Below, one piece after another: positions 3,551-64,000 of a stretch of 64,000 nucleotides of DNA. The DNA is from Paenibacillus sp. DCT19 (GTDB lineage Bacteria; Bacillota; Bacilli; Paenibacillales; Paenibacillaceae). Location of the stretch: positions 6,058,001 to 6,122,000 of the forward strand of contig NZ_CP029639.1 in the NCBI RefSeq assembly GCF_003268635.1, written 5' to 3'. The notes beneath the pieces are model-generated. The model saw only the letters and a list, made by a program, of their open reading frames with translations, was not told the origin of the DNA and made no database searches. Positions within the stretch are counted from its first letter, which is position 1; the number at the start of each line of letters is the position of its first letter. The position numbers were made by a program, and so were the translations under genes.

Positions 3551-3708
3551 TATCTAGTAATAACCGTGTACTATATATGCAGGCTATCCCTACTTCTTAC
3601 CAGAATCCAATGATTATGAATATCTGGGTTAAACTGATTATAATGAAGTATACTAAGGGTGCCGATTGTACAAAGCGAGTTGTTTTTACCCTTTTCCGAG
3701 GTGACGTT

Positions 3709-34479: not shown

Positions 34480-35702
34480 TTAGCCGTCAATTCCATATTC
34501 CTTCGCCTCACGGTGCCGATTCAGTGCCGCATGCAGTAGGAAACCAACGATCGCTACACCTGCCATCGCAGTCGCAAGCCAGGCTACAGGAATCAATCCC
34601 TGCTTGTCATACATGACTCCCATCGCATACGGGCCAATGACCCGACCAATTGCACCGATACCACCGGATACCCCAATATAGAAGGGCGCTGCTCGTCCAG
34701 CGTGCTCGGATATAAATGCCGGCGTTGCCGGAGAGATCAGCATTTCCCGAAGGTTGCGAGTACCATCGCCAGAACCATGCCGGGATAGTTATACATCGTG
34801 ATCATCACCAGATATGCCATACCGTAGAATACGGCACTAGCCGTCATCTGCGCATTGGAGGTACGAGCCATTGTACGTTTAATCCACGTTGTGAAGGGCT
34901 GCCCTACAAAGATCAGCACCCCGTTCAGGGTCCAGAGCAGACCATACATTCTTTTCTCCATACCTTCTGAAATAATGTACGGCGATACCCCTGTATTCCA
35001 GATTGAGTTACCGAATAACAAGAACAGCACACCTAGGCTCATAAACAGATACAGCCTCGTATTGCCCAGCAGTGCCCATACACTTGCACCACCAGTTTCT
35101 GTCTGGCGTTTGGTCAGATGTACTTCCCCTTGCTCAGGTTCAAGCCGCGACAGATAATACCAGAAAAATATCGCAAAGCCTGCCGAGGTGACCCCGTTCA
35201 ATATGAAGCTGAGGTGATACGAAAAGTCAGCCAGAAATCCACTAAGCGCTGTACCAATCGCTACACCGATGTTGTTCGCCACATAGATAATGTTGAACAG
35301 TTCACCACGCCGCTCTGCAAACCGGAAACCGATAAACGCTTGAATCGCCGGCAGCGACAAGGAACTGAATAAACCAATCCAGCCCATCGCGCAGATAAAC
35401 ACAACCCAGTATGCACTGATCCACGGTAGAGCAAACAGCCCTAAGGCGTTCAGTGCCAGCGATCCGATAATCAACTTTTTGACACCAACTCTGTGATACA
35501 GTGCGCCGCCAAGCAATTGCCCAAAAATACCGCCCAGAGATTGAATTAAAATGACAAATCCCGCGTTAGCCATCGTCCGACCTAATTCGTCAAACACATA
35601 CATCGTGGTCAGCGGCCACATCAAGGCACTGCCTGTCGCGTTGACCAGACTTGCCAGCAAAAATACTTTTACTTCCTTAGGATAGGAATCCAGCCATCTC
35701 AT
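34480..35702 (-). pseudogene. MFS drug/sugar-type transporter, one frameshift
   Basis: Two minus-strand frames together give one 12-helix MFS protein of about 408 residues. The first (35702 to 34737, 321 residues) runs from MRWLDSYPKEVKVFLLASLV through GRTMANAGFVILIQSLGGIF to YNYPGMVLAMVLATFGKC and stops. The second (34743 to 34480) continues with MLISPATPAFISEHAG, GIGAIGRVIGPYAMGVMYD and the last helix. One extra G in the G3 tract at 34746-34748 restores FGEMLISPA. This is the same type of break as in GH42 and the tubulin-like gene. The start ATG at 35702 has a distant GGAGC. Substrate unknown. Confidence 0.82.
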
Positions 35703-45310: not shown

Positions 45311-45790
45311 TTAACCGAGCAGCTTCTCAATCTCTGCTGTCATGGCTTCTGGAGATTCTTTAGGCTCGTAACGACCTACAACCTCACCCTCACGATTCAC
45401 CAGGAACTTCGTGAAATTCCACTGAATCGTGTTATCTTCACCCTCACCTGGTTGCTGTTCACGAAGGTACTGGAACAATGGATGAGCGTCTTCGCCGTTA
45501 ACATCGACTTTGGCAAACACAGGGAAATTAACCCCATAGTTCACTTGGCAGAACGATTCTGCTTCCTCACTCGTGCCTGGCTCTTGCCCACCAAACTGAT
45601 TACAAGGGAAGCCCAATACAACTAGACCCTGATCGCGATAACGGTCGTATAACTTCTGCAATTCGCCGTATTGTGGAGTCAGTCCACATTTGCTGGCTGT
45701 GTTGGCAATCACCAATACTTTACCTTGATACAGATCCAGAGGTGCTTCCTGATTAGCGGTAGTTAACGCTTTGTATGAATATACGGACAT
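45311..45790 (-). CDS. bsaA: glutathione peroxidase family protein (BsaA-like)
   Basis: 159 residues, the usual length. These thiol peroxidases reduce hydroperoxides; in Firmicutes they usually take electrons from thioredoxin. The peroxidatic Cys replaces selenocysteine at residue 35 (NTASKCGLTPQY), with the Gln and Trp partners in GFPCNQFGGQEPG and IQWNFTKFLV, and the second Cys in PCNQF. The ATG at 45790 has GGGAGGAA upstream. Single gene, with its own terminator. Confidence 0.95.
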   Translation of the reverse strand: MSVYSYKALTTANQEAPLDLYQGKVLVIANTASKCGLTPQYGELQKLYDRYRDQGLVVLGFPCNQFGGQEPGTSEEAESFCQVNYGVNFPVFAKVDVNGEDAHPLFQYLREQQPGEGEDNTIQWNFTKFLVNREGEVVGRYEPKESPEAMTAEIEKLLG

Positions 45791-46026
45791 GACTGATTCC
45801 TCCCATGATTGAATTTGGTTTTGATTCTAGACATAAGCTTACCCAATCAGAACGATGTGCGCTCTTGAATAGCCTGTCTTACTAACTATTATAAACATGA
45901 ACCGTTTAATTACCAAATATCCTCAACACCTATCTGTCTGTAACCACTCGCCTTTCAATAGACTCTTCGCTATGGCAGCGTCCTACATAAAAGTTTAGTA
46001 ACAACCTCTTACAACCATCTCTAAAC

Positions 46027-48076: not shown

Positions 48077-48120
48077 ATGCCCCCTATGTCATCTCATTTA
48101 TTATATAAACCGCTATATCC

Positions 48121-48353
48121 TATATAAAATTGAACTTAACATTTACACGAGAACGGAGAGGACAGAAATAATCTGAAGAAGCGGAGCGTTCGCCTGAAAG
48201 CTTTCTGCAAGAAAGCTACATCGGAAGCATTAGCTATCCCCGGATTTCCCTTTAGGAAAGAAGAATCAAAAAAATCTGGGGATAACAGCGATCGGAAGAT
48301 TGTTCTGTCATTGGAGTGGCAAGTGTAAATATTCTTTAGTTCAACTTATATAG
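48121..48353. repeat. family B element, inverted copy with a 45-bp insert
   Basis: In reverse orientation to the other copies: TATATAAAATTGAACTTAAC at the left and TTTAGTTCAACTTATATA at the right. The AAATCTGGGGATAAC hairpin arm is present, but about 45 bp with a GAAAGCTTTCTGCAAGAAAG palindrome interrupts the sequence near 48198-48230, where other copies are continuous. Confidence 0.8.
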
Positions 48354-48403
48354 ACAGCCAAAACCATCCAAATGTTACATGAAAATGAATTGCTGTTCAC
48401 AAA

Positions 48404-48442
48404 AAAATGACCCCGGCAAACCATTACCGAGGTCATTTAATA
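48404..48442 (-). terminator. terminator of the tubulin/vWA operon
   Basis: On the minus strand AAATGACCTCGG pairs with CCGGGGTCATTT, followed by a T7 run. It lies about 80 bases after the last gene of the large minus-strand operon. Confidence 0.8.
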
Positions 48443-48519
48443 TGAATGAATTGCATGACACAAGTCACTATACATAAGTTCATTACATTCAATACGTAAA
48501 ACGGACAGAAGACTGTCTT

Positions 48520-51500
48520 CTACGCTTCCGGTTGTGATGATAGCTCAATCTCAGTGGCTCCGCTTTGGATACTGACAATGTTCGCTGGATCCACATCCGT
48601 CGGGAGTGAAACCTGTTGGCCGAAAGGATATAAGCGATCTGCCGCCTCCACGGTAAGTGGTACTGTCACAGCAGAACCTTCTTCTCCAGACTCCGCTCCG
48701 TCAGAAGATCCTGATGGCGTTGTCCCCGCTCCATCTTGGGAAGACTCGTTCGTAGATTCCGTAGAATCGGATGTTGTGGTCGAATCGGAATCCTGACTTC
48801 CATCGTTACTGGATTGGGTATCATCGGTTGTGTCAGTAGAGGTACTCTCCGAACTTCCATCAGAGCTATCCCCCGTATTCCCTTCTTCCGTATCCTGTGA
48901 TTCACCATCAGATGAATCTACCGCATCTGGTTCCTCATTCCGGTTGAAGCTCTCCCATTCACTTGTGGCATCCTCCAGTTCAACGACGCTACCGTCCGCC
49001 AGCTTCAATTGCAGCTTATCCGTCTGCAATCCATCACGGTCTGCTTCATTACGGAAGCGAATGACGAGTTGCGGCGCAGTCGCTGTGCCGCTCTCTTCGG
49101 TTGCCGGTACAATGTATGCCATCTGATCGGCTAACGAAACTTCTGGTTCAGCCGGGATCGCAGGGTCTTGAACCGGTGTAGGTGAAGCTGCAGGTGGTTC
49201 TGCATTATTCCCCATTAAAGCATACGTTCCTCCGGCAATGCCGAGAATCAGAATCACCACGAATGACCCTAGAAAAACATTTTTCCTCTTCCCGGTCAAT
49301 AAACGTACCAGGGATGAAGATAACTCCGACTTCGCCCGGTCATAGGTTGGCTTCATGGTCTTACTAGCTCTAGCATAATATGGCTTAAAGGCTGACTTAG
49401 ACTTGAAGGCTTCACGATCATGCGCCTTGAAGTACGCTACGATCGCATCGGAGTATGGCTTACTCGCTTGAGATCCCCGGACAAACAGCCGTTGATTGCC
49501 CGACCATTCCAGAAACGGATACAGACCTCGCTCACTGCCTGCTGTGCTCCGAACAAATTCAATCAGACCTGCATAGTCAAGCTTAGCCCCATTACCTCCA
49601 CGATAAAAGGCAAGAGGCAAGGCTGCGAACGCATCCTGATCAGGACGTTCTCTAAGCTCATCGGCAAGCCAGCGTCTGGTCCAACGCTGGAGCTCATTAC
49701 GCTCTGTAAGGGAGAGGGCTTCCAGATCCTCTTCATCACGACCTTCACCACTGAGCCAGGCTCTCGCGGCCAGCATCATGTTCGTGCGTGCGGATACATC
49801 TGAGCCCTGACGTGCAGCCCAATCCCGAACCTCACGATCATGCTGCAAAATATCAATGCTTAACAGATGTGCCCGGCTCACTCGCTCTAGGTCAAGATCT
49901 TGGATCAGGAAGAGATTAATGACGTAGGCAAGCTTATCCGCTAGACGGGTTAATTGCTCTTGATATGACAAGGCTGCAGCGTCAGCTCCAGATTTACGTT
50001 CTGGACGGGCAACGGCCTCCGATTGACCGATCTGTCCCGTAATCCCCATGTCCACAGGCTCTTCCATGGAAGTCGAGACACGGTCCAATACACTCACTCG
50101 ACTGAGCGCTTCATTGGCGGATTGCACCGGATTCGGTGCAGAGCATAGTCGCTCACGGAGCTCTGTGGCTGTCCGTTCCAGCAAGAAAGCATTATGGATA
50201 GACGACGGATGGGATAGCACCCAATTTTCAATGACATCCACCACATTTGCCGCTGACTCTGTTTGTTTTAATTGAGCGTCCAGATAAGGCTCAAATAACA
50301 GCTTGGTCAATGATTCATTGGTTAACACCTTACCGAAAAATGCACGATTCAGCTCTTCATTCCGATTTAGCAAACTATATAATTCTTGAACGGCTCGCAT
50401 ACGTTTCTGTGTGCGCGCGTTGTTGATCGCATAGATGAAATAGTCCACGATTCGAGATTGCACGACTGGTGCGGCTACGGTGAAATAATCACTGATTCGA
50501 GCTGCAACCGGCTCCTCAGGCACATTTTCTCGTTTAACATTATTTAATTCCCGACTAAGCAGCGTCAGGAATAGCTCATTCAGACGAGCGCGGCGCTGGA
50601 TGGCTGCTTCGGGTTTCAGATATGTAAGAAGCCCACTTAGCACACCGCTTTTGTTATTAAGGTATAAGTCTTCATGTCCCTGTTCAAGACGGTAAAACAG
50701 AGATAACTCCCCGTACGCTTCAACCGAAAGCTCACGTCCAGGCTCCATGCCTGACAGCATCTCGTCGGCAAAAGAATAAAACGGCGTGGCTGCCTCCGGA
50801 TCATGCAGCAATGACCACGCAAAATCCATATAAGGAAGATTCGCCACTGCTGCATCCGCGTGGGTTACCCTGCCTGACATGAGATCAAACGTAAAGTCCT
50901 TCTCTGTATTACGATCTTTGGGACGAAGTGTGCCTCTCTCCACGAACTGAAGATGAATGCCTTTTTTGGCTTGCGGTTCCTTCGCAAACGTCATGAACCC
51001 AAGCTGTCTCCGGTAGGCGTAAGGTAGTGCCGTATAGAGCAGACGAAGCAACTCCTTCGCCCCTGCGGTGACTTGCTCTGCGGGCAGATCCAATGCGATA
51101 TACACTTTACGGCGTGTCGCAACAGCCTGCATCACAGCATAGAGCAGACGCTTGAACAATGCCTCATTCAGTTTTAACCCCGCTAGAATCTCGCTAGGTG
51201 CGGCTGAAGACGCTTCAGAGCCCTGCCCAACTTCCCTCTCCCTTGTAGAAACACGCGGTAACACAGACAGCGCAGGCAGCACTGTACCTTGCTCGATGTC
51301 ATAGGACGTGGCAAATGCCGTATCCAGCCAGCTACCCGTTCTCATCAGCTCTTCCGAGCGTTCAGGAGACAGTACATAGTTATGGGCGAAGAAAGCACTT
51401 CGAAGCCCAGTAAAGTCCGCCGCTTGGTACACATTCTGCCCTAGAATCGTCTCTCCACTGTCCAGATGCAGTAGATGTATTGCAGCTGGGAATTTGGTCT

Positions 51501-51699
51501 CGTCCTTCTCGCTCCGGCCAGTCAGCTCCGCAGGAGCATCATAGACACAGTACGGATGAAGTACTTTTTTGATAAAAGAAGGTTCCAGTCCCGGTGATGC
51601 CGCGACCGTATCGAAGCCTTCTGTGGTGCGAAATACCCCTCGCCGCTCTCGGGTATACATCTGCTGTTCAATCGGCGGGGTCATGGAAGACTGCATCAT
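48520..51699 (-). CDS. membrane-anchored GTPase-associated protein (GAP1-like)
   Basis: 1059 residues. The N-terminal ~280 residues (PIEQQMYTRERRGVFRTTEG, SPGLEPSFIKKVLHPYCVYD, then an alpha/beta segment with AVATRRKVYIALDLP) match my recollection of the GTPase-associated protein 1 N-terminal and middle domains. A long helical region runs to about residue 800. One transmembrane helix is at about 808-829 (VFLGSFVVILILGIAGGTYA), then a Pro-rich stretch, a Ser/Asp/Thr-rich low-complexity segment (about 924-1008) and a short C-terminal domain. So the bulk is cytoplasmic and the tail probably external. The start overlaps the GTPase gene by four bases (ATGA), indicating coupled translation and a shared job. 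Function unproven. Confidence 0.72.
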   Translation of the reverse strand: MMQSSMTPPIEQQMYTRERRGVFRTTEGFDTVAASPGLEPSFIKKVLHPYCVYDAPAELTGRSEKDETKFPAAIHLLHLDSGETILGQNVYQAADFTGLRSAFFAHNYVLSPERSEELMRTGSWLDTAFATSYDIEQGTVLPALSVLPRVSTREREVGQGSEASSAAPSEILAGLKLNEALFKRLLYAVMQAVATRRKVYIALDLPAEQVTAGAKELLRLLYTALPYAYRRQLGFMTFAKEPQAKKGIHLQFVERGTLRPKDRNTEKDFTFDLMSGRVTHADAAVANLPYMDFAWSLLHDPEAATPFYSFADEMLSGMEPGRELSVEAYGELSLFYRLEQGHEDLYLNNKSGVLSGLLTYLKPEAAIQRRARLNELFLTLLSRELNNVKRENVPEEPVAARISDYFTVAAPVVQSRIVDYFIYAINNARTQKRMRAVQELYSLLNRNEELNRAFFGKVLTNESLTKLLFEPYLDAQLKQTESAANVVDVIENWVLSHPSSIHNAFLLERTATELRERLCSAPNPVQSANEALSRVSVLDRVSTSMEEPVDMGITGQIGQSEAVARPERKSGADAAALSYQEQLTRLADKLAYVINLFLIQDLDLERVSRAHLLSIDILQHDREVRDWAARQGSDVSARTNMMLAARAWLSGEGRDEEDLEALSLTERNELQRWTRRWLADELRERPDQDAFAALPLAFYRGGNGAKLDYAGLIEFVRSTAGSERGLYPFLEWSGNQRLFVRGSQASKPYSDAIVAYFKAHDREAFKSKSAFKPYYARASKTMKPTYDRAKSELSSSLVRLLTGKRKNVFLGSFVVILILGIAGGTYALMGNNAEPPAASPTPVQDPAIPAEPEVSLADQMAYIVPATEESGTATAPQLVIRFRNEADRDGLQTDKLQLKLADGSVVELEDATSEWESFNRNEEPDAVDSSDGESQDTEEGNTGDSSDGSSESTSTDTTDDTQSSNDGSQDSDSTTTSDSTESTNESSQDGAGTTPSGSSDGAESGEEGSAVTVPLTVEAADRLYPFGQQVSLPTDVDPANIVSIQSGATEIELSSQPEA

Positions 51700-52961
51700 C
51701 CCACTCTCCCCTCAATGTACTTCAGCTTGTACAGTAGCCATAGGAATGGCTCGTCCACGCGGATCGGACTAACAACACCTTGTAGCTTCATATCTACCGG
51801 ATTGCTTCCTAGTGCGGACACAGCGAAGTATGCCGTATCTTTGAAGTAGACATCCATTGTGCCTTTGAACGGACGATCCACCTTCTCAATAAAGCGGCGA
51901 ATCTCTCCATCGATATTTTCAAACTCCGTCAAGTCGAACCAATCGCGGTGTACCATGTTACGGAACACGTTGCTGTTGGATTTGATGTAATCGCCATCCT
52001 CATCCTTCAGGGAATGCAGCATGTCACTTTTGGTCAGCACAACGGCTGTTGGAATGTTTGTTTTTGCCTTGTCTTGATAAGCGATAAAGTCACCGAACAA
52101 TGTCAGTACCACGTCGCGCGGTTCATCATATCGTGGTGTCCACTCACCCGGCTCATTGCCGAGGTTAATCCGGATTTTGTCCCGAATGGAGCGAATCTGA
52201 AGTGGGTCAACCATAAACAGAATGCCGGCTGAATTTTTGATATGCTGTCCGTGAAGTCCCAGATAATCCTGCTCCACCATACCTTCACCAGCCACGTCAA
52301 AAAACACCAATGTCAGTGGAGCTTTATCTTCGTCCTTGAACACAAATTGGAAAATAAACGGCTCCTGCAGCTTCTCCTTCTGCGTTGAATCCAGCAGATC
52401 CCCCCGCTCAAACAACGGCTCTTCATAATCCGCACGGAATCTACGGCTAATCTCTGCATTCAGCGGCATACAAGCAGCATCAAAATGATCGGCTGTGTAA
52501 TGCTGTAACGTATGGATGAGCGATGTCATGTACACCGATTTACCCACTTGGGAAGCCCCAATAATGGATATGATATTGCTTGGCGCCTTGCCTGCTGTCA
52601 CAGGTAGCTCATTATGACAATGCGGGCACAGTCTGCGGCGGGTAACGACACCATACCGATCATTTAATCCCATCACAATGTTATCTGAATAAATGCGATG
52701 CTCCTCTGGTACGTCATGCGGGGCAAGCACGGCCTCCATATCAAACACCGTATCAAGCCCAAAGCGTTCACGATAACGATTCAGCTTCGCATCTTCCCCG
52801 AGTGCGTAGTCTTCATCGTCGTCTCGGTGATGAGCTGCTCGGAATACAACCTCTTCCGGCGAGAATTTACTGAAACAATAGGGACATACAATATCGTAAA
52901 ATAGCGGCCGTTCTTCTGGCTGCTGTCTTTTCAAAAAACGACTAAAAAAGCTCATAGCCAC
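51696..52961 (-). CDS. zinc-ribbon P-loop GTPase (double-GTPase-type)
   Basis: 421 residues (the ATG at 52955 is better spaced from GGGAGGGGA than the GTG at 52961). Two CPxC pairs (Cys26/Cys29 and Cys112/Cys115) flank an insert and probably form a zinc ribbon. The GTPase core follows: Walker A GASQVGKSVY (about 135-144), DVAGEG (about 222-227) as the Walker B/switch II and TKSD (about 310-313) as the base-specificity motif. This resembles the DO-GTPase2 group predicted in conflict systems. It is translationally coupled to the GAP1-like gene downstream, so the two probably form a GTPase-effector pair. Confidence 0.78.
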   Translation of the reverse strand: MAMSFFSRFLKRQQPEERPLFYDIVCPYCFSKFSPEEVVFRAAHHRDDDEDYALGEDAKLNRYRERFGLDTVFDMEAVLAPHDVPEEHRIYSDNIVMGLNDRYGVVTRRRLCPHCHNELPVTAGKAPSNIISIIGASQVGKSVYMTSLIHTLQHYTADHFDAACMPLNAEISRRFRADYEEPLFERGDLLDSTQKEKLQEPFIFQFVFKDEDKAPLTLVFFDVAGEGMVEQDYLGLHGQHIKNSAGILFMVDPLQIRSIRDKIRINLGNEPGEWTPRYDEPRDVVLTLFGDFIAYQDKAKTNIPTAVVLTKSDMLHSLKDEDGDYIKSNSNVFRNMVHRDWFDLTEFENIDGEIRRFIEKVDRPFKGTMDVYFKDTAYFAVSALGSNPVDMKLQGVVSPIRVDEPFLWLLYKLKYIEGRVG

Positions 52962-52993
52962 TCCCCTCCCCTAATTGAAAGTCAACCTATTCA

Positions 52994-53641
52994 TTAGTCC
53001 GATATTAGCCGGTACACCGTTCCATACTTGGGGCCGTCCGTGAAGAATAGTCTGACGTATTCATCCTTCCCGACCTCAACAGGCGGCATCTCATTTCTTC
53101 CAGGTGCAAAATCATTTACAAATGGATACACCGTACCGTCTTCCTTGTTAAGCGGGACACTCCCCTGTTTACGAACATAACAGAGAGCCTCCTTCGGAAC
53201 CGGTGCTTCGGTCGTAACGGTCATGAATACACTTTTTCTTTTCTGAAAAAAACCACTCTTATACCGAATGGAAAATCGAATATCCGCCTTGCCTGCACTC
53301 GCCATCACCGTGTTCTCATCGTTCGACTGACGGAGCAAGACAGGCTCGGCATCATCCATCCTGCAGATATAAACCGTATAACGGATCGCTCCAAAACCGG
53401 TTATCCGATCCACGTATCCGTTACTTGCTTTGTATTCCTCACGCGTATAGAGCTTCAACTTACCTTGCGCATGTGCATCGCCGCTGTTCTCCTTGCCCAG
53501 CATCGCAACCTCCAGCCGTTCAACATACACAGCCTCGACAGCCTCTGGCCAGAGCCAGCGGAGCGTACACATGCCCTCGTCCACCGCCAGTGTCAGTTTG
53601 CGAATGGTGGGCGCCGAAGGATCTGCATCTGTAAATTGCAT
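52994..53641 (-). CDS. small beta-rich hypothetical protein of the operon
   Basis: 215 residues with no signal peptide or membrane helix. The ATG has GGGAGGT upstream. The sequence looks like one or two beta-sandwich domains (ITGFGAIRYTVYICRMDDAE, KADIRFSIRYKSGFFQKRKS), similar in feel to fibronectin-type folds, but I do not recognise a family. It lies 21 bases after the membrane vWA gene and 32 bases before the GTPase gene. Possibly an adaptor. Confidence 0.7.
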   Translation of the reverse strand: MQFTDADPSAPTIRKLTLAVDEGMCTLRWLWPEAVEAVYVERLEVAMLGKENSGDAHAQGKLKLYTREEYKASNGYVDRITGFGAIRYTVYICRMDDAEPVLLRQSNDENTVMASAGKADIRFSIRYKSGFFQKRKSVFMTVTTEAPVPKEALCYVRKQGSVPLNKEDGTVYPFVNDFAPGRNEMPPVEVGKDEYVRLFFTDGPKYGTVYRLISD

Positions 53642-53662
53642 GTTCCTAAGACCTCCCGATGT

Positions 53663-54958
53663 TTAGAATCCTTTGCTTCGTGTGTCTCTTGCGCGCCCTC
53701 CGAACCCTTCTGCCGAAGCGTTCCCTCTTCTGGCATCGCGCCGGCCGCGATTGCTCCGTGGTGTATTCTCCTTCATCGGAATAATCCATGTAAACAGGGT
53801 CAATACGGAAGCCAGCAGGAGCATTGCGCCAAGCCTTACAAATGCATCGCCGACAGGTGATCCGTCCAGCCCCCATTCTAGAAGGAGACCGGCTAACAGA
53901 CCTGAGACTGCTCCACCGACGCCGAAGCTGAGCGCCAGATGACGATTATCAAATACCAGTCCAAGAGATACACCCAGCGCTACCCCAATCAACAGCAGGG
54001 CAGCTACGCGGAAAATAGCCAGATACGTGCTATGCTCCATCATACCCGTACGTTCCGTAACCAGTGTTCGCTCATCAATCGTATCGTAAATCTGCTGGAA
54101 TGCCAGGTTAAGCCCACCTGCATCCGGCACATCATAATAAAGGCCACCTGTCTGCCCAGCAATGCTGCGCAAAAGATCCGTTCCCGAAGGGTCTACCAAG
54201 CTGAGTCCCACCGTGTTGACCGCAATCTGTTCATTCACGTATTCCGATAGAATGCCAGACGTATCGACTTCACTCATACCGTCAGATAACAATATCGCAA
54301 CGGTACCACGCTTCGGATCTTGTTTGCCCTTAATCTGTTCCATCGCTTCTTTCAAAGCCGCATCAAAATTCGTTCCGCCTGAGGTTGTCACGATGCTATC
54401 GATTTTGTCATATACCTCATTCTTAGCTGCTTCATTATCCAGCGCAATGAACGGCTGCAACAGTTCTGGCTCATCCGCAAATGTAATGACGGCTACCTGC
54501 TTATCGCTCTCCATTTGGCTAATCAGCGTCTTCGCGGCCTCAAAGCGGCCATTATTCGGATCGGTCTCTGTCATGCTGCCTGAATTGTCAATCATGAGCA
54601 CGATATCCTTGACCTGCTTCACACCGCCTGGATTGATCTGATACAGCAGTTGTACTACTAGCCCCACCACGAATAAGAGTGCGAGTGTTGCCGGGACAAG
54701 TAATTTCCAAGATAAGCTCAGATATCGCAGCTTCCATGAAGCACCGTTAAGCTTCGGTGAGATCATCTCAGCAAGTAGGCAGAATAGACCCACACTTAGT
54801 GCAACAACACCGAAATATAATCCCATCAGCAACAGACGAGGCATCTCTCCAAGCCACTGATGCAGCATGATTTCCCCTGCCGCAAATCCTACTGCTCCGC
54901 CAACGAGGCTGAACAGTACCAGGAGAAGATTGATTTTTCGCTGCATGTTCACATGCAT
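53663..54958 (-). CDS. vWA-domain membrane protein
   Basis: 431 residues. Two or three N-terminal membrane helices (about 9-30, 40-62, 88-106) precede a vWA domain with an intact metal-ion-dependent adhesion site, DNSGSM (Asp124, Ser126, Ser128), TSGGTNFDAAL and LLSDGMSEVD. Three more hydrophobic segments (about 315-395) follow, and the C-terminus is Arg/Gly-rich (NRGRRDARRGNASAEGFGGR). AAAGGATG lies before MHVNMQ; GTG at 54952 or ATG at 54946 are alternative starts. vWA domains bind protein partners through a metal ion; in this operon it probably links the GTPase parts to the membrane. Confidence 0.85.
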   Translation of the reverse strand: MHVNMQRKINLLLVLFSLVGGAVGFAAGEIMLHQWLGEMPRLLLMGLYFGVVALSVGLFCLLAEMISPKLNGASWKLRYLSLSWKLLVPATLALLFVVGLVVQLLYQINPGGVKQVKDIVLMIDNSGSMTETDPNNGRFEAAKTLISQMESDKQVAVITFADEPELLQPFIALDNEAAKNEVYDKIDSIVTTSGGTNFDAALKEAMEQIKGKQDPKRGTVAILLSDGMSEVDTSGILSEYVNEQIAVNTVGLSLVDPSGTDLLRSIAGQTGGLYYDVPDAGGLNLAFQQIYDTIDERTLVTERTGMMEHSTYLAIFRVAALLLIGVALGVSLGLVFDNRHLALSFGVGGAVSGLLAGLLLEWGLDGSPVGDAFVRLGAMLLLASVLTLFTWIIPMKENTPRSNRGRRDARRGNASAEGFGGRARDTRSKGF

Positions 54959-55021
54959 CCTTTCTACACCAGCCCTTAATGAGGCTGAATTAATACAAGC
55001 GTGAGTGATGACGAGGGCTGG

Positions 55022-55699
55022 CTACCGCACGGGAGACAGTTTGTCCGCAAGACCTTCAGGATGCAGCTCATATCCGTTATCTGTATAGGACTCGTAATAT
55101 ACCTTGGCATTACGATAGACCATCAGATCCTCGAGATGGAAGCCTCCCATAAGATTCAATTTCTCTACGCCGCTGCTGCGCTCTTCATACACGACACCAA
55201 GCTTGTAGATTCGTGAAGTTTCCTCGGCATGTGCCGCATAGTCCATGAAGGCACTATCATGGTCGCCAAAGAAATACTTTTCTTCGTACCGATGTTCCTG
55301 CGTATAATCGAACACCCTAACACGTACAACAGCCTGATCCTCTAACGTGCGATATAATCGACGGAACAGGTCATCACGCGTTAACACATTTTTATCTCCA
55401 TACGTAATCGTGACATTGGCACGCTGTAATAGCTCTTCTTCAAAAGGGACACGCAACGGTTCAGCGCTCAGTAACAGCGCATGACATACGTCCATAAGAC
55501 GCTCCAATACACGTTCCTTGCCCCGCGTAGCCAGATGGTTCATATCCCCCATATAGCGGTCTTCAAACCATACGGCCCGTCCACGCTTGGCCTCTAGATC
55601 CGTAACTAGGTCTTCCGTCACTTTGCCGTAGTATTCCATGACATTTTGTCCAATGTACTCATCCGCTGCGGCTATGCTCGCTTCGGCTGTCTCACGCAA
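55022..55699 (-). CDS. hypothetical protein, possibly the C-terminal part of the preceding gene
   Basis: 225 residues from the TTG at 55699. GAGGGA is twelve bases upstream, which is far. The N-terminal helix (RETAEASIAAADEYIGQNVM) reads on smoothly from the end of the 588-residue frame if one G is added to the G3 tract at 55713-55715, giving QSLRGLEQTLRETAEASI. The remainder is alpha/beta with no known motif (EDQAVVRVRVFDYTQEHRYE). It may therefore be a broken part of one ~813-residue protein rather than a separate gene. Confidence 0.6.
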   Translation of the reverse strand: MRETAEASIAAADEYIGQNVMEYYGKVTEDLVTDLEAKRGRAVWFEDRYMGDMNHLATRGKERVLERLMDVCHALLLSAEPLRVPFEEELLQRANVTITYGDKNVLTRDDLFRRLYRTLEDQAVVRVRVFDYTQEHRYEEKYFFGDHDSAFMDYAAHAEETSRIYKLGVVYEERSSGVEKLNLMGGFHLEDLMVYRNAKVYYESYTDNGYELHPEGLADKLSPVR

Positions 55700-57438
55700 T
55701 GTTTGTTCCAGTCCCTCAAGGACTGGGTGATGCCTCGACTAAAAGCGTGAAGCTGCTCCATCTCCGTATCGTAGATGCGCAGCAATTGCAGTTCATTTTC
55801 AATCCGTAATAACTCCACCTTCGGTACATACACTCGTTCAAGGATACAGTCAATCACGTTGCGTACATTTTGTTTATCACGGAATAAGGCTCTTTTGAAC
55901 GGTTGATCCTGTACCTGCTCCTGCAACCGCTGCTCAAGAACAGCTCGTGCCGATTCAAGCTGCATGGATTTGTCCCGAATCAATCCAAGCAAGCCTTCCC
56001 GTACACTTCCCATTCCATGATTACTCCAAGCCGCCCACTGGAAGTAACCTACCTCCGGGTGTTCATCCCGAGCTTGTTCTGCCTGCTGACGAAGAGCACC
56101 TTCGGTACTCCGCTGACGTACACGCTCTTCGACCTTACGTGCCACATTATCACGGAAGTACGCTTCAGCTCCATGACCGAACAGCGCTCTCTCCGCTTCA
56201 CGTAGCGATAGCGGCTTGAGATCAGCATAGCTGACGTTATGGGTCATGATGCCGCTCATACCACTGACCAGATCCTCACCTGGTAATAGCCCATCAATCT
56301 TACGTTCTATTGTAATCGGATCAAGGCCAAAGAACGAAAGCTTGTCCTTGATGCCCCAATCCTCCGGTTCCTTCCGCATCTGTTCAAGCAGATGCCGGTA
56401 GAAGTGATATAGCACAGCAAGCGCGATAGGCTTGTTGGGACGCCTGATCTCAGCATAACCTGCGCTGGCATAACCATGCTGATCTGAGGTGGTGCGAATG
56501 TTATTTTTGAATGAGGTATTGTTGTAGGTGTTCGCTCCTGTGCTCGAAATGGTGCCAGCAGCATCCATATCCTGTTTACGATTCTTGAGCAGACAGATGC
56601 GGCAGATAATCTCGGCATTCTCTATCCAACCACCAGATACCCCTGTGCCCCGTTCATTCTTATCTGACAAAATATACACCAGGTCAAACAGCGGCGAAGC
56701 CGGATGGGTGACCGGAATAGAAATGCCATCTTCCGTCACGAGCAGACGACCGCTAAAGGTATAATCCAAGCCCTGCATATAATCAAGCTCTCGCAAAAAG
56801 GCCAGTCCTGCTGCACTTGCATACCCGTATGAGTTCACTTGCTCCATTTCACTAACCAGAACATGCAGATCTGTCTGCACCGATTTGAAGGATTGAGCCA
56901 GTATCGTCTCCGTCAATTTCGTAAGCTCAGGCAAAAGCACATTCAATGGGTCATCCGCTCTAGTTACAACCGTCACATAGATGCGATCAAATGAAGAATA
57001 CAGACGCCCGTATTCAGCGATCCGGTTACTCACCCGCCGTAAAGTACGATTCAGACCCGCAAGTGCCTGATCTGAATCGTGAAACTGACGGTATATGTCT
57101 TTGCGCAATGTTTTGGATGATTCGGACTGTGCCGTAGACAGTGGTAAAATATGCCGAGCGACCTGACTATCCTCAGCTCGTTCGCCTCTACGCTCCTCTT
57201 GTTGATCCAAGTCTTCTGTTCCAACCTGTACATAGACCACGCCATCCCCGTTATCCCACTTCGTTCGGTTGATCTCACGGACAACAGGTAATGCCGGCGC
57301 AACCAGGTCACCTACGAACAAGAACAAGGCGGGGTAATGGATGCTGCTGCGACCATCACCCAGACTGCCCTGACGTTCCTGCTCCGCCGTATACGATGCC
57401 GCGAATTGCTCCAAGCTGTGCTTCATCCTGGCAGCCAT
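55672..57438 (-). CDS. large hypothetical protein of the tubulin-like operon
   Basis: 588 residues from ATG 57438, starting within two bases of the tubulin-like gene's stop, so the two are coupled. The N-terminal 250 residues look alpha/beta (YPALFLFVGDLVAPALPVVR, FDRIYVTVVTRADDPLNVLL, SYGYASAAGLAFLRELDYM), followed by a long charged helical region with likely coiled coil (EGALRQQAEQARDEHPEVG, ARAVLEQRLQEQVQDQP). I recognise no family. The last ~20 residues (DWNKHCVRQPKRA) look out of place and the frame probably continues into 55022-55699. By position it is likely a partner of the tubulin-like filament protein. Confidence 0.68.
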   Translation of the reverse strand: MAARMKHSLEQFAASYTAEQERQGSLGDGRSSIHYPALFLFVGDLVAPALPVVREINRTKWDNGDGVVYVQVGTEDLDQQEERRGERAEDSQVARHILPLSTAQSESSKTLRKDIYRQFHDSDQALAGLNRTLRRVSNRIAEYGRLYSSFDRIYVTVVTRADDPLNVLLPELTKLTETILAQSFKSVQTDLHVLVSEMEQVNSYGYASAAGLAFLRELDYMQGLDYTFSGRLLVTEDGISIPVTHPASPLFDLVYILSDKNERGTGVSGGWIENAEIICRICLLKNRKQDMDAAGTISSTGANTYNNTSFKNNIRTTSDQHGYASAGYAEIRRPNKPIALAVLYHFYRHLLEQMRKEPEDWGIKDKLSFFGLDPITIERKIDGLLPGEDLVSGMSGIMTHNVSYADLKPLSLREAERALFGHGAEAYFRDNVARKVEERVRQRSTEGALRQQAEQARDEHPEVGYFQWAAWSNHGMGSVREGLLGLIRDKSMQLESARAVLEQRLQEQVQDQPFKRALFRDKQNVRNVIDCILERVYVPKVELLRIENELQLLRIYDTEMEQLHAFSRGITQSLRDWNKHCVRQPKRA

Positions 57439-57439
57439 C

Positions 57440-60400
57440 TTACTTCAACCTTCTGCGAATGTCGTTCAGCTTGGACGACATCGTTCTGTAGAACTGATAG
57501 ATATCCTCGCCATTCGCCAGCTCGACACGTTCGTATTCCAGACGATCACGGGATTCCATGAACAGTGCAGCAAGTTCATCCAGTTTCGCAAGGAGAGGAG
57601 CGATATCCTCCGAAGCGGTCAGATCGTTATCCCGGCGTGAAGCTTTGCGAAGCAAGGTGTTCCGATCCTTCTCCGACAATCCACGGAAGTTGCCAAACAC
57701 CTCATATTCAGCAAAGTTACGGCTCTTCATCAGATTGGCGAACGGCTCCCATGCATCTTCCTCGGGGTCACGATCATAGACATACAGTGCACCCTTCTTC
57801 ACAATTGTGTCCGTATAGAGGGCTTCAATGAAGCGATCATACCACTGCTCTTCATCCTGATGCTGAGCAAGGATTGCTTCAAGCTCAGATGCTTTCACCG
57901 AGATTGCATTCATCTTCGCCAGTTCCTCGCGTACACGCGCAATCAGTTGTGGAGAACGCACCAGGTTTTCTTTGGCCATATCTTCATTAATACTTCCGAA
58001 AATATCCTTCACGCTGACCCGTGGCAATCCTTCGGATTGCAGACGTTTCAGTTCAATGACCGCCCGCTTCACTTCACCAAGGTTTGGTGTAGTTGATGTC
58101 AGACGCATGTCGTAGCTACCTAACTTCGCGGATAGATCAAACGGCTCTGTCGTTACTACCGCGTAGCGGTTGCTTGTGTTCTCATCCAACGTCTTCGCAA
58201 TAATGATGTTGTATCCGAGCGCTTGCTCGAATTCAGAACGAACACGGGCATTGTACTGCTTCACGCGGCTGTTCTCATACACATCGCCCCATGATTTCTC
58301 TGGAATCGGAGACGGAAGATACGTCCAGTTATTTTTCTCCGTTTGCACGAGGTGGCGGCCAATTCCTTCTTTGTCCAGAATGGTACGCTCGTAACTTTCT
58401 TCATATACTTTCAGCGGTGTATACACAAAGAGCGGCACACCGTTACGTGTGTTCAACCAGAAGATTCGGTTACGAACCTCGCTCTCCTTAACCGTAAAGT
58501 GAGACTTCCCTACCGCATTGTTCTGATAATTGCGAATTCCTTTGAGAATACCTGGTGCCTGTGTTGGTACGGATACGAATCCCCATGATGGGAAGTGAAG
58601 GCTACCCGTGCTATTGCTCAGGTTAAATACGGGCACCGCTTCATCATCCAGTTTACCTGCGATGTGCCGTTCTACGAACTTCTCAACAGACTCATCCTGA
58701 CCATATTTGATCACGAGGAAATCTTCCATCGAACGGGTAATCAGGTCGCCGAACTTCTCGGTCAAGAAGTCTGAGATGGAACTTACCACGTCAATCTCGT
58801 TCTCCTTCACCCACTGGTTGGAGTTCTCTAACAGTTCACGAGAGAAGTCACGGATCAAGTCATCCGTATCACGCTTGTCTAACAGCCCATCCACCACGCT
58901 GACGATATCCGGTACACTTACCACGTTCCAATAATACGTCTTGTTGCCTTTGTGATCTGCCTGTTCTTCCCCGCGGGTCAGAATATCTCCGTTCTTGGAG
59001 AAAATCGAGCTGAGTGCATTCAAAGTTTCGCTAAATACGTTATAGATGCGGCTGTTCTCTTGGTTGAGCAGTTCATACAGATCCTCATAGAACTCGATCA
59101 TCTGTTCGTTCCGCTCTACATCAGCGTGCAGCCAGTATTCATGAATTTTGGCTTCAATATAAGCATTCTTTTTCTTCTCTTTGGAGACGAAGGCGCTCTT
59201 CGCATCACCAAGCTTCTCTTCAGACTGTTCTTGGGCAGCCTCGATATCGCGTGGAATGCGGAAAGCATTCTCCCGTAATGTCTCAATGTACGATTGGATC
59301 ATCTTGAGAATACAGAAGCCTTTCTCCGTATAGATGAGACGAGAAACATAGAATGGCCCCTGCTCTGGATGCAGGAACATCCGGCGAATCTGTTCGGTGA
59401 ATTGCCCTGCAATCTCACCCGGATGCTGTTTTTTCGCTTTGATATATTCTTCACGTGCACGTGCTAGGAAGTTCTGTTCCAGCTCTGTGTCCATGTTCAC
59501 CACTTGGGATTTCACGACATTGTTGTAGGACAGACGTTCACTGTTCTGATAACCTGGAAGCGGCTCCGGCACGCGGGATTCGAATGCCTTCACTACGCTT
59601 TCGAGATCAATGCCTAACTTACGAGCGAATTTCTCGGTATCTTCCTGATTTGGTGCTTTGGAGAACATCGTGCTCATCTTGTCGAACATCCGGTACGCCA
59701 GATATGTCGTCATTTCTTCAATCGGCAGTACAGCCGAGGATGCACCGATGATGTTGTAATCATAGTTCGCTGGGTACACCTTGTTCATCTGTGCAATGTT
59801 GGTACGAATGTTGCTAATGTAGTCATGGATCGCGAACTCTTCACCAGACTGCTTCTCTTCACTCGCCATGAAGTTGGTGATATTCTCTGCCGTAACATTC
59901 ATACAGTAATCGTACGCATTTTCCAGCAGTTTACCTTCCGTGTTCGTGGCTGAGATCAAGTGACACAGATTAAACGGTGGCAACGGGGAGTTAACGGTCA
60001 GGATATTACCGTACTTCTGCGTAAAGCGTTCACCGCGGCTGTCCACGTTCATCCAGTAATCCAGCTCTTTAAGCGCAGCATAACCGTTCTTGCGGATATA
60101 TTCCCGCGTATGCTCACTCAAGCTTTTGTTGGACAAGTTCACGTCTGGCGTGAACAGGTAGCCGAGTGTATTAACGCGGTCAATCCCCGCTGAGCCATGA
60201 TCACGTTCGATGATGCCACGCACAATATACGAAATATCGAGGAAGCACCCACTGCCAGTCCCCCGGACAGACCCGTGAGCAGGAACACCATCAATTTCTT
60301 ATTTGTACCTACGGAAAGTGTCTTAATCTTCTTATCGATGGCTTGCACCACTTGGTTGATCTTCGTGAATAACAGCAGACGACCTGCCTGACGAACGCCT

Positions 60401-60828
60401 GCGGCTCCGTTCATGCCATCCGTAATGCTCAGCTCTGGCGAGAGCCAGTCCGTAATATAAGGCTCCAACACACTGCGGTTCTGCAGCAATCCGCCAATCT
60501 CGGCATTGGACAGTAACACGAATTCGTTAATCGGGTCTAGACCGATTCCTTTGTATCTCTTGGCACGATCCTGTTCGTTCGTTTCGAATGCAAGAAACTC
60601 GACGTTGTCTGGCTTCTCCATTTTCTTCTTAGACACTGGATCTTGTGGCAGCTTGAAGCGACGATTAATCTGATACTTGAGACGAAGCAATGCATCGATC
60701 CCTGTTCCCCCAAGACCAATAATCAACATCGGGTTATCGATGGTATCAACCCTGATTTTTTCGCTGACAATTCCTCCGCCAAGCGATACATCCAGTTGCT
60801 GAATATGTTCTCTAACAATCGGTTTCAT
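57440..60828 (-). pseudogene. tubulin/FtsZ-like GTPase (Tubulin_2), one frameshift in the GTP-binding loop
   Basis: The two frames (60828 to 60139 and 60223 to 57440) together make about 1128 residues. The N-terminus (DNPMLIIGLGGTGIDALLRL) is the tubulin-type nucleotide fold; the tubulin signature GGTGSG is spread across the break. The first frame reads LLTGLSGGLAVGAS and goes astray; one extra G in the G5 tract at 60260-60264 restores GLSGGTGSGCFLDISYIVRG. The C-terminal ~700 residues are helical and charged. Such proteins are predicted to polymerise with GTP. The ATG at 60828 has GGAGG upstream. The gene is second in the operon, after the signal-peptide vWA gene. The break is most likely a base-calling gap, but a real disabling mutation cannot be excluded. 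Confidence 0.85.
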
Positions 60829-60846
60829 TCCATGTCCTCCCTTTGG

Positions 60847-62640
60847 TTACACTAAATACTCAATCAAAATGGTTTTATCCGCTTGTTGCAGCGGGATGCT
60901 CAGCCGATCACCGTTCTTCAGTTCAACGCCTGAGCTTGCATCGACCGCACGGCCGGATTTCTCCAGCGTGCCTCCTGCCGTGTTGCGTATCATAATCCGG
61001 TCACCATTGCCGGGTGTGAATATATATTTTTCGGTTTCCTTAAGTTCAGGGTCTAGCTGCAGCAATTGATGCAGATGGAACTTGCCCCGGAATGATGCTA
61101 GCTTTTTGTATTGCGGATAGGACTTGTCTCCTGTGTTCTCATCACGAATCTCAACGACCATCTGACCGACAAACCCGCGATTTTTACGTTTCAGCCAGCC
61201 CATCAGGAACCAGCCTCCAACCGCTACAACGATCAGAGCGATGACACCCAGAATCACAGGTAACCATGGGAATGGCTTGTCCTCTCCACCGGCTGATGTC
61301 GTTGGCTGAGTTCCACTTCCTGCTGCTCCGCCAGCATTAATGATGACTGGAGCGCTCTCCCGGTAAAAGCTATCTTCCTCTGCTCGAATAATCAACTCGT
61401 ATTGATGGTTATCTGGAACGGTGAACGTACCAGCAAATCCATCTCCTGTGTTCTCGATCGGCTGTTCCTCACTTTTACCTGTATCCACATCATTGATCAC
61501 CAGCGTTGCTTTCATATCAGCATACAGGTCTTGATCCTGTAATGGTTGACCACCATTCTCCAGCTTCGCGGTTAGATCAATCTTGTCGCCTTTTTTATAG
61601 GACTTGGTCTTAATTGGATCCACGACGAGTTGCAGATCGTAGTTAAACAGCAGATTGATATCAATACTGTCCTTCGGAGCCCCTTTGACTCGCAGCTTCC
61701 AATCTCCCTCTTCCGGTTTGAGCAACTTCACCAAGGAATAGCTCTTCGAAGTAGATAGCTTGGCTGCATCGGAGTTCAGATCGACAGCATTGCCAGCTGG
61801 ATCGGTTAATTGGATCTCGACTGGCTTCGATGACATGATCGAGATGTTAGCTTCTAACACACTATCATTCGGCACGTTCACGGTAACTTCCTGATAACTG
61901 CCGTTTCCCGTAATGGAAGGCAGCTTTACGACATTTAATTTGGCATGATCTGCGAATATTTCGCTTAGAATCTGTGGCAGATCATCCGGCGTATCCGTGA
62001 TAAAGGACTTACCACCTGTCTGCTCGGCTAGGTCAGCGAGTGCATCCTTGTTCAGTTTGCCATCGGCATTCAGACCAATCGTATACACGGGAATGCCTTG
62101 TGCCTGTGCTTCCTTAACGGCTATGTCCAGATCCGCATCGGACTGTGCCTGTGTACGACCTTTTGTTTTGTTAAAATCGTTGTTACCATCCGCCAGCAGT
62201 ACGATCATCGGGGAATGAGACGGATCAGCACCATGGTTCAGGATGTTCACAGCCTCGGCAACACCTACTGAAATGTCGGTGTATGGCCCTCTACCCAGCT
62301 GATCAATAAAATCCTTCAGGTTGCTTTTGTCTGCATCTGACTGAATCTCTAGCATCGCCTTCTCCCGCTCGACCTGATCGGTGTATGCGACAATCCCTAC
62401 CTTGTCCCCTTGGACAGGTAACATATCAATAAACATTTTCATGGCTTCATTGCTAATCTTGTCACGATCACTTGTGTTCATCGAATTACTTACATCGGCC
62501 ACAAGTACCGCATCAATTCCGCTTGATTGTGTCTGAGCCGCTACCGCCTGAGGCAGCAACGTCGAAGGCAGCAGTAGCGTTAGTAATACCAGCAGAACCA
62601 AGGTTCCACTAAGCCAGCGTATTTTGCGTGTGCGCAGCAT
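60847..62640 (-). CDS. vWA-domain protein with signal peptide and C-terminal membrane anchor
   Basis: About 597 residues from the ATG at 62640, with GAAGGAGT upstream. A signal peptide (about 1-35, WLSGTLVLLVLLTLLLPSTL) places the vWA domain outside; its MIDAS motif is DVSNSM (Asp49, Ser51, Ser53) with YTDISVG and DGNNDF. A beta-rich region follows (about 230-455), then a transmembrane helix (WLPVILGVIALIVVAVGGWF) and a C-terminal cytoplasmic domain of about 110 residues (KKLASFRGKFHLHQL, PGNGDRIMIRN) resembling an FHA-type beta-sandwich. It is the first gene of the operon and could sense an external ligand and pass a signal to the inner components. Confidence 0.85.
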   Translation of the reverse strand: MLRTRKIRWLSGTLVLLVLLTLLLPSTLLPQAVAAQTQSSGIDAVLVADVSNSMNTSDRDKISNEAMKMFIDMLPVQGDKVGIVAYTDQVEREKAMLEIQSDADKSNLKDFIDQLGRGPYTDISVGVAEAVNILNHGADPSHSPMIVLLADGNNDFNKTKGRTQAQSDADLDIAVKEAQAQGIPVYTIGLNADGKLNKDALADLAEQTGGKSFITDTPDDLPQILSEIFADHAKLNVVKLPSITGNGSYQEVTVNVPNDSVLEANISIMSSKPVEIQLTDPAGNAVDLNSDAAKLSTSKSYSLVKLLKPEEGDWKLRVKGAPKDSIDINLLFNYDLQLVVDPIKTKSYKKGDKIDLTAKLENGGQPLQDQDLYADMKATLVINDVDTGKSEEQPIENTGDGFAGTFTVPDNHQYELIIRAEEDSFYRESAPVIINAGGAAGSGTQPTTSAGGEDKPFPWLPVILGVIALIVVAVGGWFLMGWLKRKNRGFVGQMVVEIRDENTGDKSYPQYKKLASFRGKFHLHQLLQLDPELKETEKYIFTPGNGDRIMIRNTAGGTLEKSGRAVDASSGVELKNGDRLSIPLQQADKTILIEYLV

Positions 62641-62683
62641 GAGGTGTACTCCTTCACGTTTGAGATTAAAATGGGAATAGTTT

Positions 62684-62689
62684 ATTATA
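62684..62689 (-). promoter_or_regulatory. candidate -10 box of the tubulin/vWA operon
   Basis: TATAAT on the minus strand, 44 bases before the first gene. No good -35 is visible at 16-18 bases (AGATTT), so an activator may be needed. Confidence 0.4.
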
Positions 62690-62802
62690 GGCGTCAAGCC
62701 TTAAGGAAATCTTAACAGTCTACTAATAAATTCTGAAAAGCACCCCTATCTTGAGTTACAATTCTGTAATGACTGGCAATAATCGACGATTTTAGCCTTT
62801 TG

Positions 62803-62822
62803 GTTGGAACAAATATTCCAAC
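62803..62822. promoter_or_regulatory. palindromic operator candidate in the divergent region
   Basis: GTTGGAA-CAAATA-TTCCAAC is a perfect 7-bp inverted repeat with a 6-base spacer, in the 290-bp region between the divergent operon and the plus-strand pair. It may coordinate both. Confidence 0.5.
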
Positions 62823-62928
62823 TATGGAAATATGATATAGTTATTGCCATCAAACCGCAATATAACAACGTAGCGTGCGATCACCTTTATTTGTACGCAC
62901 AATAACGCTATCTAGAGAGGATCGAATT

Positions 62929-63072
62929 ATGGTTACATACGTATGTCTCGCCATATTGTTTCTTTTTGTCCTAATTAGAGCGGTTCGATTCTATCTTCAC
63001 AACCGGAAGCCCGTGACCCGAGAAGATTCAGATCGCACGCTGTACACTATACTGAACGGTGAGCGTGATTAG
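62929..63072 (+). CDS. small single-pass membrane protein
   Basis: A 47-residue protein from ATG 62929, behind GAGAGGATC; the open frame starts at 62875 without support. One N-terminal helix (VTYVCLAILFLFVLIRAVRF) is followed by a short charged tail (HNRKPVTREDSDRTLYTI). It lies three bases before the next gene, so they are co-transcribed, divergent from the tubulin/vWA operon. Confidence 0.6.
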   Translation: MVTYVCLAILFLFVLIRAVRFYLHNRKPVTREDSDRTLYTILNGERD

Positions 63073-63075
63073 AGC

Positions 63076-64000
63076 ATGAGCACAAAACAAGTGGTTTCTA
63101 TTAGACCTTTTAACCGGACGACATATGCCTTTGAAAAGTTGCGTGTGTGCAAGCGATGTGGACAATATACCTGCTTATGGGAAGATGAATGCACATCCTG
63201 TGGCCGCAGCACACTGATTCATGTTCAGGAACATGCTGGCTCAAGGGTTAAGCGCCGGATCGCTCGTGATTTCCTATTTACGATTATTCTGGGGTCTGCT
63301 GCTACCTATTTCGGTGAGACGACCGATCAAACGATGCTAGCCGCAACCGTGTCTCTCCTGCTCATCGGATGGCTCATCTATATTCATAAACGCGCCTTTC
63401 CTGTCCAACAACTCCGCCAGATGAAGCGGTTGTTGTACGAGGAACGGGAAAAGATCCGTCAGGGCATCAACCGCAACTGGGCGCTAGTCGCCGAAGCTCG
63501 ACAGGAGGATGAAGCTCTCGCATATGAGATGCTGCGTGAGATTGGCTCACTCGTATACAATGATCGAATTCGTCTTCAGCAAGTGGCTCTACTTCAATCC
63601 TTCGTCCTTCGGAGTGACATGGATTTACAGTTGAAACCACTGCTGCTTCGCAATTTTGAGCGACTGCTCGCTGAATATATCGGTGAGATTGCTCGAATCA
63701 AGCCTGATCTGGTTCGTGAAGATGCCATTCGTTACATCGCTACGTACGAAGTGAATATTTTACAGCTACACAATGGCATTCAGATCCTAACTGCCGTGGC
63801 CGCCGCGGCTGTACGCAAAAGCAAATATATTGAGTTATTCCCTAGTCTTATTACCCGCTACGCCCGCTTTATGCCCAAGGATCGATTCATGCGCTTGTAT
63901 CACACCATAGAACGTTACCCCCATAAAGCGCGAGGTGGACTGGCAGAATCAGTCGGTCGGGTATATGACGAGAAATATCGAGATCATTACGTCGAGGTAC
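63076..64000 (+). CDS. zinc-ribbon membrane protein, 3' end beyond window
   Basis: An open frame from ATG 63076 with no stop before the window edge (at least 308 residues). Cysteines CKRC and CTSC (in LRVCKRCGQYTCLW and DECTSCGRSTL) form a likely zinc ribbon. Two adjacent hydrophobic helices follow (FLFTIILGSAATYFG, MLAATVSLLLIGWLIYI). The rest is helical and charged (LLYEEREKIRQGINRN, RLQQVALLQSFVLRSDMDLQ). No family recognised. Its divergent position and the shared zinc-ribbon theme with the GTPase suggest it belongs to the same system. Confidence 0.75.
   Translation, partial: MSTKQVVSIRPFNRTTYAFEKLRVCKRCGQYTCLWEDECTSCGRSTLIHVQEHAGSRVKRRIARDFLFTIILGSAATYFGETTDQTMLAATVSLLLIGWLIYIHKRAFPVQQLRQMKRLLYEEREKIRQGINRNWALVAEARQEDEALAYEMLREIGSLVYNDRIRLQQVALLQSFVLRSDMDLQLKPLLLRNFERLLAEYIGEIARIKPDLVREDAIRYIATYEVNILQLHNGIQILTAVAAAAVRKSKYIELFPSLITRYARFMPKDRFMRLYHTIERYPHKARGGLAESVGRVYDEKYRDHYVEV

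Follow-up and report, generated by a model that had tools for sequence, protein, structure and literature searches.

Two families of prediction bear on the locus described here. Makarova and Koonin (2010) defined the tubulin-like FtsZl1 family from operons that also encode von Willebrand factor type A (vWA) proteins and GTPases, and proposed that these operons act in membrane remodelling (PMC2875224). In that paper's own text, some elements of the FtsZl1 filament are said not to be identifiable, and a reviewer expressed doubt about the topology (PMC2875224). Kaur et al. (2020) defined the DO-GTPase and GAP1 families, proposed that they belong to conflict systems, and stressed inactive enzyme copies as possible decoys; the Firmicutes form that they describe has two tubulin genes, two vWA genes, a DO-GTPase, and a GAP1 protein with a polar tail (PMC7159879). 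Tubulin_2, the domain family concerned, has been treated as a divergent group apart from FtsZ and tubulin (PMC9871819). Here we analyzed a window of 64,000 nucleotides from Paenibacillus sp. DCT19, positions 6058001 to 6122000 of a 6.67-Mb genome assembled as a single contig. By its gene content and domains, a system in this window is the Firmicutes GAP1-N2/DO-GTPase tubulin (FtsZl1) theme, which had already been predicted, and it encodes a second tubulin-like protein, tub2, that seems to lack GTP-binding loops. A first-pass annotation of the same DNA had taken this arrangement to be known from computational prediction only. The literature entries listed indeed hold no experimental account of the system, although Kaur et al. 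already describe it closely (PMC7159879) and the FtsZl1/vWA/GTPase operons were reported before (PMC2875224).

The system occupies one run of minus-strand genes, 62697 to 48520, that encodes seven proteins once split genes are counted whole. In transcript order these are vWA1, the active-type tubulin tub1, tub2, a membrane vWA protein, a protein of 215 amino acids (aa), the DO-GTPase, and GAP1, and gene ends abut or overlap at 57440/57438 and 51699/51696. On the opposite strand, a 47-aa open reading frame (ORF) with one transmembrane (TM) segment (62929 to 63072) is followed by a zinc-ribbon membrane protein gene (63076 to 64008). The whole set therefore comprises nine genes, seven in the operon and two in the divergent unit, and membrane spans are predicted in five proteins of the cassette. 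The Pfam search that the first-pass annotation had proposed for each protein returned VWA twice, Tubulin_2, DO-GTPase2, GAP1-N2, and GAP1-M, and the nearest named homologs are Paenibacillus proteins.

As in the Firmicutes form of Kaur et al., a zinc-ribbon DO-GTPase is followed by a GAP1-N2/M protein with a TM helix and a polar tail, there are two tubulin genes, and one of the two vWA proteins has several TM helices (PMC7159879). That form also has a vWA-YtkA fusion and a component with FNIII repeats, neither of which was matched here; for YtkA, this refers to the first 25 of the 42 families listed for vWA1. A degenerate tubulin is not stated at the 10 places where the text of Kaur et al. mentions tubulin, and its section on the Firmicutes form contains neither the micro-ORF nor the divergent zinc-ribbon unit (PMC7159879). 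With the FtsZl1 family, tub1 shares a tubulin-like N-terminal domain with the GGTGSG loop and an operon with vWA and divergent GTPase genes; the coiled coil and helical C-terminal domain described for FtsZl1 may correspond to long helices in a weak tub1 model (PMC2875224). Compared with the FtsZl1 operons, no OmpA or kinase gene is among the families found here, and a second, loop-less tubulin is added (PMC2875224). The loop-less tubulin partner and the tiny membrane protein look like new details beyond the earlier predictions.

To place these proteins among relatives, two sets of loci were used: 20 loci picked from tub2 matches in the same family and scored by tblastn, and 80 loci (73 Paenibacillus, 6 Brevibacillus, and 1 labelled Bacillus) analyzed by profile search of ORFs. 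Counts over 100 loci include four genomes twice (L040/L123, L041/L086, L042/L084, and L043/L106). The tub1 gene (57440 to 60828, minus strand) matches Tubulin_2 on two pieces, with E values of 2.6e-27 and 7.1e-33, and intact tub1 in relatives has 1,129 aa. Its T1 and T4 glycine loops are kept in 100/100 relatives' loci, and the weak structure model places the long helices at residues 503 to 618, downstream of the tubulin domain. Over residues 30 to 400 its median identity equals that of the FtsZ core closely (92.7 versus 92.8), while the minimum identity is lower for the tub1 tubulin domain than for FtsZ (78.2 versus 89.3). We infer from these sequence features that tub1 would bind and cycle GTP. 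One tub1 protein cluster (P0159), 92% identical to the query region, carries a Gram-negative source name and is probably a contaminated or mislabelled record. Weak partial Tubulin_2 matches were also seen in four class genomes without tub2 (G519, G552, G632, and G641) and may represent another tubulin-like group.

The tub2 gene (55022 to 57438, minus strand) had been read in the first-pass annotation as a large helical protein that might be split. The split was correct, since two ORFs make up one gene, whereas the helical reading gave way to a second tubulin-like protein. A profile comparison by hhalign aligned tub2 with tub1 at probabilities of 92% and 96% (E values of 6e-7 and 1e-8) over 206 columns, with clean controls, and Tubulin_2 was matched in 19/27 tub2 homologs (E up to 0.1; best, 3.2e-6). 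The window's own tub2 piece lies under the Pfam Tubulin_2 cut-off (17.2 bits versus 27). The glycine loop GG[TS]G[ST]G was found in tub2 in none of the 100 loci and in none of 96 distinct sequences; a conserved non-glycine motif takes the place of the phosphate-binding glycine loop. Among 299 class genomes, tub1 and tub2 co-occur in an identical set of 42. Tub2 hence seems to be homologous to tub1 and apparently to be without GTP-binding loops, and from its sequence it would be a nucleotide-free partner. Many tub2 records (homologs among P0002 to P0120) are publicly named "transcription initiation factor TFIID", a name that looks spurious, and a few are called tubulin-like.

Two objections to this picture of the tubulin pair can be weighed directly. 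Tub2 could be an unrelated Rossmann-type protein rather than a tubulin: every Foldseek match had an E value above 0.03, with TubZ first and other Rossmann folds close in Z score, the tub2 profile gave no match to FtsZ, and an initial profile comparison of tub2 with tub1 based on few sequences was weak (4%). Set against the deeper hhalign comparison and its clean controls, and against the Tubulin_2 matches in most of the homologs scanned, we consider an unrelated fold very unlikely. The other objection concerns the state of the genes in this strain. In the window, tub1 consists of two ORFs (60139 to 60828 and 57440 to 60223), broken at the glycine-rich T4 loop, and tub2 of two others (55672 to 57438, 588 aa; 55022 to 55699, 225 aa). 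The sequence contains both breaks, one of them at the GTP loop, so that programmed frameshifting, phase variation, or, in this strain, a decaying system could be imagined. Yet tub1 and tub2 are each a single ORF in 20/20 relatives fetched, among them one with a 98% alike tub2, and the closest tub2 homolog is one protein of 805 aa, 98% alike. In a comparison with the relative G025, 36 of its ORFs aligning to the window over at least 90% correspond to 34 distinct places, six of which, both tubulins included, differ in length by something other than a multiple of three. Because of these two observations, an assembly error is likely the simplest reason for the broken genes, and genuine splits appear improbable. 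At the other four places (window positions 22232 to 23893, 34480 to 35702, 45311 to 45829, and 3666 to 4692) the differences suggest a single-base error in one of the two assemblies, not assigned to either genome. Past the window end, the end of an ORF recognized by eye as a SulP-type transporter (L034 5362 to 6699, about window positions 68361 to 69698) looks out of frame, which fits the same assembly problem.

Conservation of gene order, on which the first-pass annotation had staked its reading, is strong. The eight large genes, namely the seven of the operon and the zinc-ribbon gene, occur in the same order and orientation in 20/20 loci by tblastn and in 75/80 by profile search, and gene order is thus kept far beyond chance. 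The exceptions in the larger set are three loci without a GAP1 ORF (L080, L108, and L112), one without a zinc-ribbon ORF (L098), and one that is cut (L141). Elsewhere, the membrane vWA ORF is short in L038 (250 aa) and in L258, no GAP1 ORF was called in L053, where the stretch ends, although GAP1 was seen there by tblastn, and GAP1 was unmatched in L258, L259, and L260, whose stretches end nearby. Tub2 is present in 95/197 family genomes and 10/19 genera, and in 22/23 genomes sampled from the window's own genus, its own included.

The components differ markedly in their rate of change. Among 20 relatives, median pairwise identities were 91 for RpoB, 87.5 for FtsZ, 82 for the DO-GTPase, 81 for tub1, 60 for vWA1, 54 for the membrane vWA protein, 51 for the 215-aa protein, 49 for tub2, 40.5 for the zinc-ribbon protein, and 37 for GAP1 (19 genomes). 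Compared with the rpoB tree, 8 of 17 splits were common to tub1 and to the joined operon, 7 each to vWA1 and the zinc-ribbon protein, 5 each to tub2 and the FtsZ control, and 4 to the DO-GTPase, with 7/16 for GAP1 and about 0.2 for label shuffles. Supported conflicts with the rpoB tree numbered four each for tub2 and vWA1, three each for tub1 and GAP1, two each for the zinc-ribbon protein and FtsZ, and one for the DO-GTPase. When an intact tub1 homolog (P0121) was used as the query, none of 50,697 phage records matched, and a single remote match appeared among 72,556 plasmid records. Among six flanking genes, an ABC gene (12/100 loci) and a helicase gene (20/100) each recur in 5/6 loci of the own genus, while a SulP gene recurs in 13/100 and the remaining genes in 0 to 3, many stretches having short flanks only. 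From these comparisons, inheritance looks mostly vertical, alongside gains, losses, and movement between genera. This largely vertical-looking pattern may set the system apart from the mobile neighbourhood described for the theme of Kaur et al. (PMC7159879).

The DO-GTPase gene (51696 to 52961, minus strand) matches PF19993 at 29.6 bits (cut-off, 27). Its motifs GxSQxGKS, FDVAGEG, and TKSD, which complete G1, G3, and G4, and the two CPxC halves of its zinc ribbon are invariant in 16 sequences, in agreement with the first-pass description of a zinc-ribbon GTPase. The downstream gene, GAP1 (48520 to 51699, minus strand), matches GAP1-N2 and GAP1-M at 142.7 and 89 bits (cut-offs, 24). Its middle part matched no known family and one TM segment lies at about residues 808 to 826; the tail beyond, by inference outside the cell, is polar, rich in Ser, Thr, Asp, and Glu, and has a median identity of 20%.

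The first gene of the operon, vWA1 (60847 to 62640, minus strand; VWA E value, 1.5e-13), is predicted to encode a signal peptide, an outside vWA domain with further domains, one TM segment, and a cytoplasmic C-terminal domain, with hydrophobic segments at residues 10 to 28 and 462 to 480. Its ORF opens at 62697, a start at 62640 being judged likelier, and the VWA domain was found in 19/19 aligned members. The FHA-like inner domain proposed in the first-pass annotation found no support among the first 25 of the 42 families listed. The membrane vWA protein (53663 to 54958, minus strand; VWA E value, 2.3e-19) carries a DxSxS motif, read in the sequence, and six hydrophobic segments that would place three TM helices on each side of the vWA domain. 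Between it and the DO-GTPase lies the 215-aa protein (52994 to 53641, minus strand), earlier called beta-rich, which is present in 20/20 and 79/80 loci. Its Pfam matches did not rise above chance, none of 18 members matched FN3, and no PDB relative was found; it is a candidate for the FNIII-like component.

In the divergent unit, the 47-aa micro-ORF (62929 to 63072, plus strand) lies directly upstream of the zinc-ribbon gene. A small hydrophobic ORF precedes that gene in 74/79 loci under permissive rules without a shuffled control, and the window's 47-aa protein matched 95/100 loci in a loose, unfiltered tblastn search at E values up to 1, 58 rows being full length. Changes at codon positions 1, 2, and 3 numbered 7, 6, and 19 for L134 and 1,020, 786, and 1,448 over the 58 rows, and the third-position excess in near relatives fits a coding gene. 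The zinc-ribbon membrane protein gene (63076 to 64000, plus strand) runs on to 64008 past the window, its complete ORF corresponding to L034 77 to 1009. Its four cysteines are invariant in 17 sequences, and the gene is present in 20/20 and 79/80 loci. In 55/100 loci it is directly followed by a gene for a further TM protein of about 590 aa (for example, L259 4775 to 6544 and L260 14194 to 16038), and the single member that was scanned ends in a bacterial SH3 domain; since this gene is missing from the six own-genus loci (L035 to L040), we did not count it in the window's system. An extracytoplasmic function-type promoter between the divergent units, considered from permissive regular-expression counts, was dropped, the enriched words AGAAACA and CCGTATG lying in the micro-ORF coding sequence. 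The word TATATCAT occurs in 51/79 divergent intergenic regions versus 1.2 expected. At the other end of the locus, the operon has an intrinsic terminator (48405 to 48438, minus strand) with a 15-pair stem, a 4-nucleotide loop, and a T run, the one stem that stands out among 14 terminators found in 48100 to 63200 (12 expected). A consensus promoter scan of the same interval gave 15 matches against 19.7 expected. The operon with its strong terminator, the gene overlaps, and the divergent pair had all been noted in the first-pass annotation and were borne out.

Taken together, we propose, with about even confidence, that a membrane-anchored GTP switch couples outside vWA domains to the assembly of an asymmetric tubulin pair, and that the system more likely has an envelope role than one in mobile defence. 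At the inner membrane face, tub1 and tub2 would assemble as an asymmetric pair or polymer; only tub1 would cycle GTP there, and tub2 might determine the register, the nucleation, or one end. The DO-GTPase and GAP1 together would act as a switch, allowing assembly or halting it. Both outside vWA domains could read a wall or surface ligand via their metal site and feed the switch through the membrane spans, and the micro-protein and the zinc-ribbon protein might tune or anchor it. The envelope role may concern wall or membrane damage, and it is preferred since the core behaves like machinery retained over a long time in the core genome. The first-pass annotation had already suggested a polymer or switch that senses a surface event and acts across the membrane; the component list, the anatomy, and the conserved gene order fit this suggestion, although one component had been misread as helical.

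In Kaur et al., this gene set is counted with the conflict systems, and inactive enzyme copies are emphasized as possible decoys (PMC7159879). Accordingly, the DO-GTPase/GAP1 switch could sense an invader and set off an assembly of tubulin that either walls off the cell or kills it, with tub2 as a decoy or dominant-negative form. The patchy presence of tub2 across the family would suit such a function, and the fast evolution of tub2, GAP1, and the zinc-ribbon protein keeps it alive. On the other hand, the members stand in a fixed order and do not look like swapped effectors, and PADLOC (2023) gave just two matches, both at chance level (E values of 0.032 and 0.041), the surroundings not having been surveyed for a defence island. 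We favor the envelope role because the tubulin core matches FtsZ in median conservation, the system is nearly fixed in the genus, and it is nearly absent from phage and plasmid records; an anti-phage or other conflict function therefore appears rather unlikely to us. A membrane remodelling or vesicle machine with tub1 as the force-making filament, in line with Makarova and Koonin (PMC2875224), is a reading that we regard as possible, though short of probable, and it overlaps with the proposed switch. It draws on the FtsZl1 type of tub1, on the helices modelled past its tubulin domain, and on the vWA protein, GTPase with a Cys-rich part, and membrane proteins also found in the published operons (PMC2875224). 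Neither force nor vesicles are indicated by the present data, however, and the reservations voiced in that paper about filament elements and topology apply here as well.

In BtubA/BtubB and the alpha/beta tubulins, too, two members of the tubulin superfamily are encoded together, and both subunits reportedly keep nucleotide sites. Unlike in these pairs, the glycine loop is lost in one partner here, and both partners have large extra parts. Tentatively, and at below even confidence, we suggest that bacteria of the Paenibacillus and Brevibacillus groups keep an obligate asymmetric tubulin pair in which one subunit, about as constrained as FtsZ, would bind GTP and the other, without a GTP site of its own, would regulate or cap assembly, the pair being wired by DO-GTPase/GAP1 to extracellular vWA sensors. 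If true, this would be a transmembrane cytoskeletal switch of prokaryotes that, in contrast to alpha/beta tubulin and BtubA/B, contains a nucleotide-free subunit. Predicted in 2010 and again in 2020, this tubulin-superfamily system seemingly still lacks an experiment among the literature entries listed. Many soil bacteria that grow easily keep it, its tubulin core is constrained much like FtsZ, and the nine genes, fixed as a set, offer defined partners. Overall, a natural pair of an active and a dead tubulin would offer a simple test of the role of a nucleotide-free subunit in a filament.

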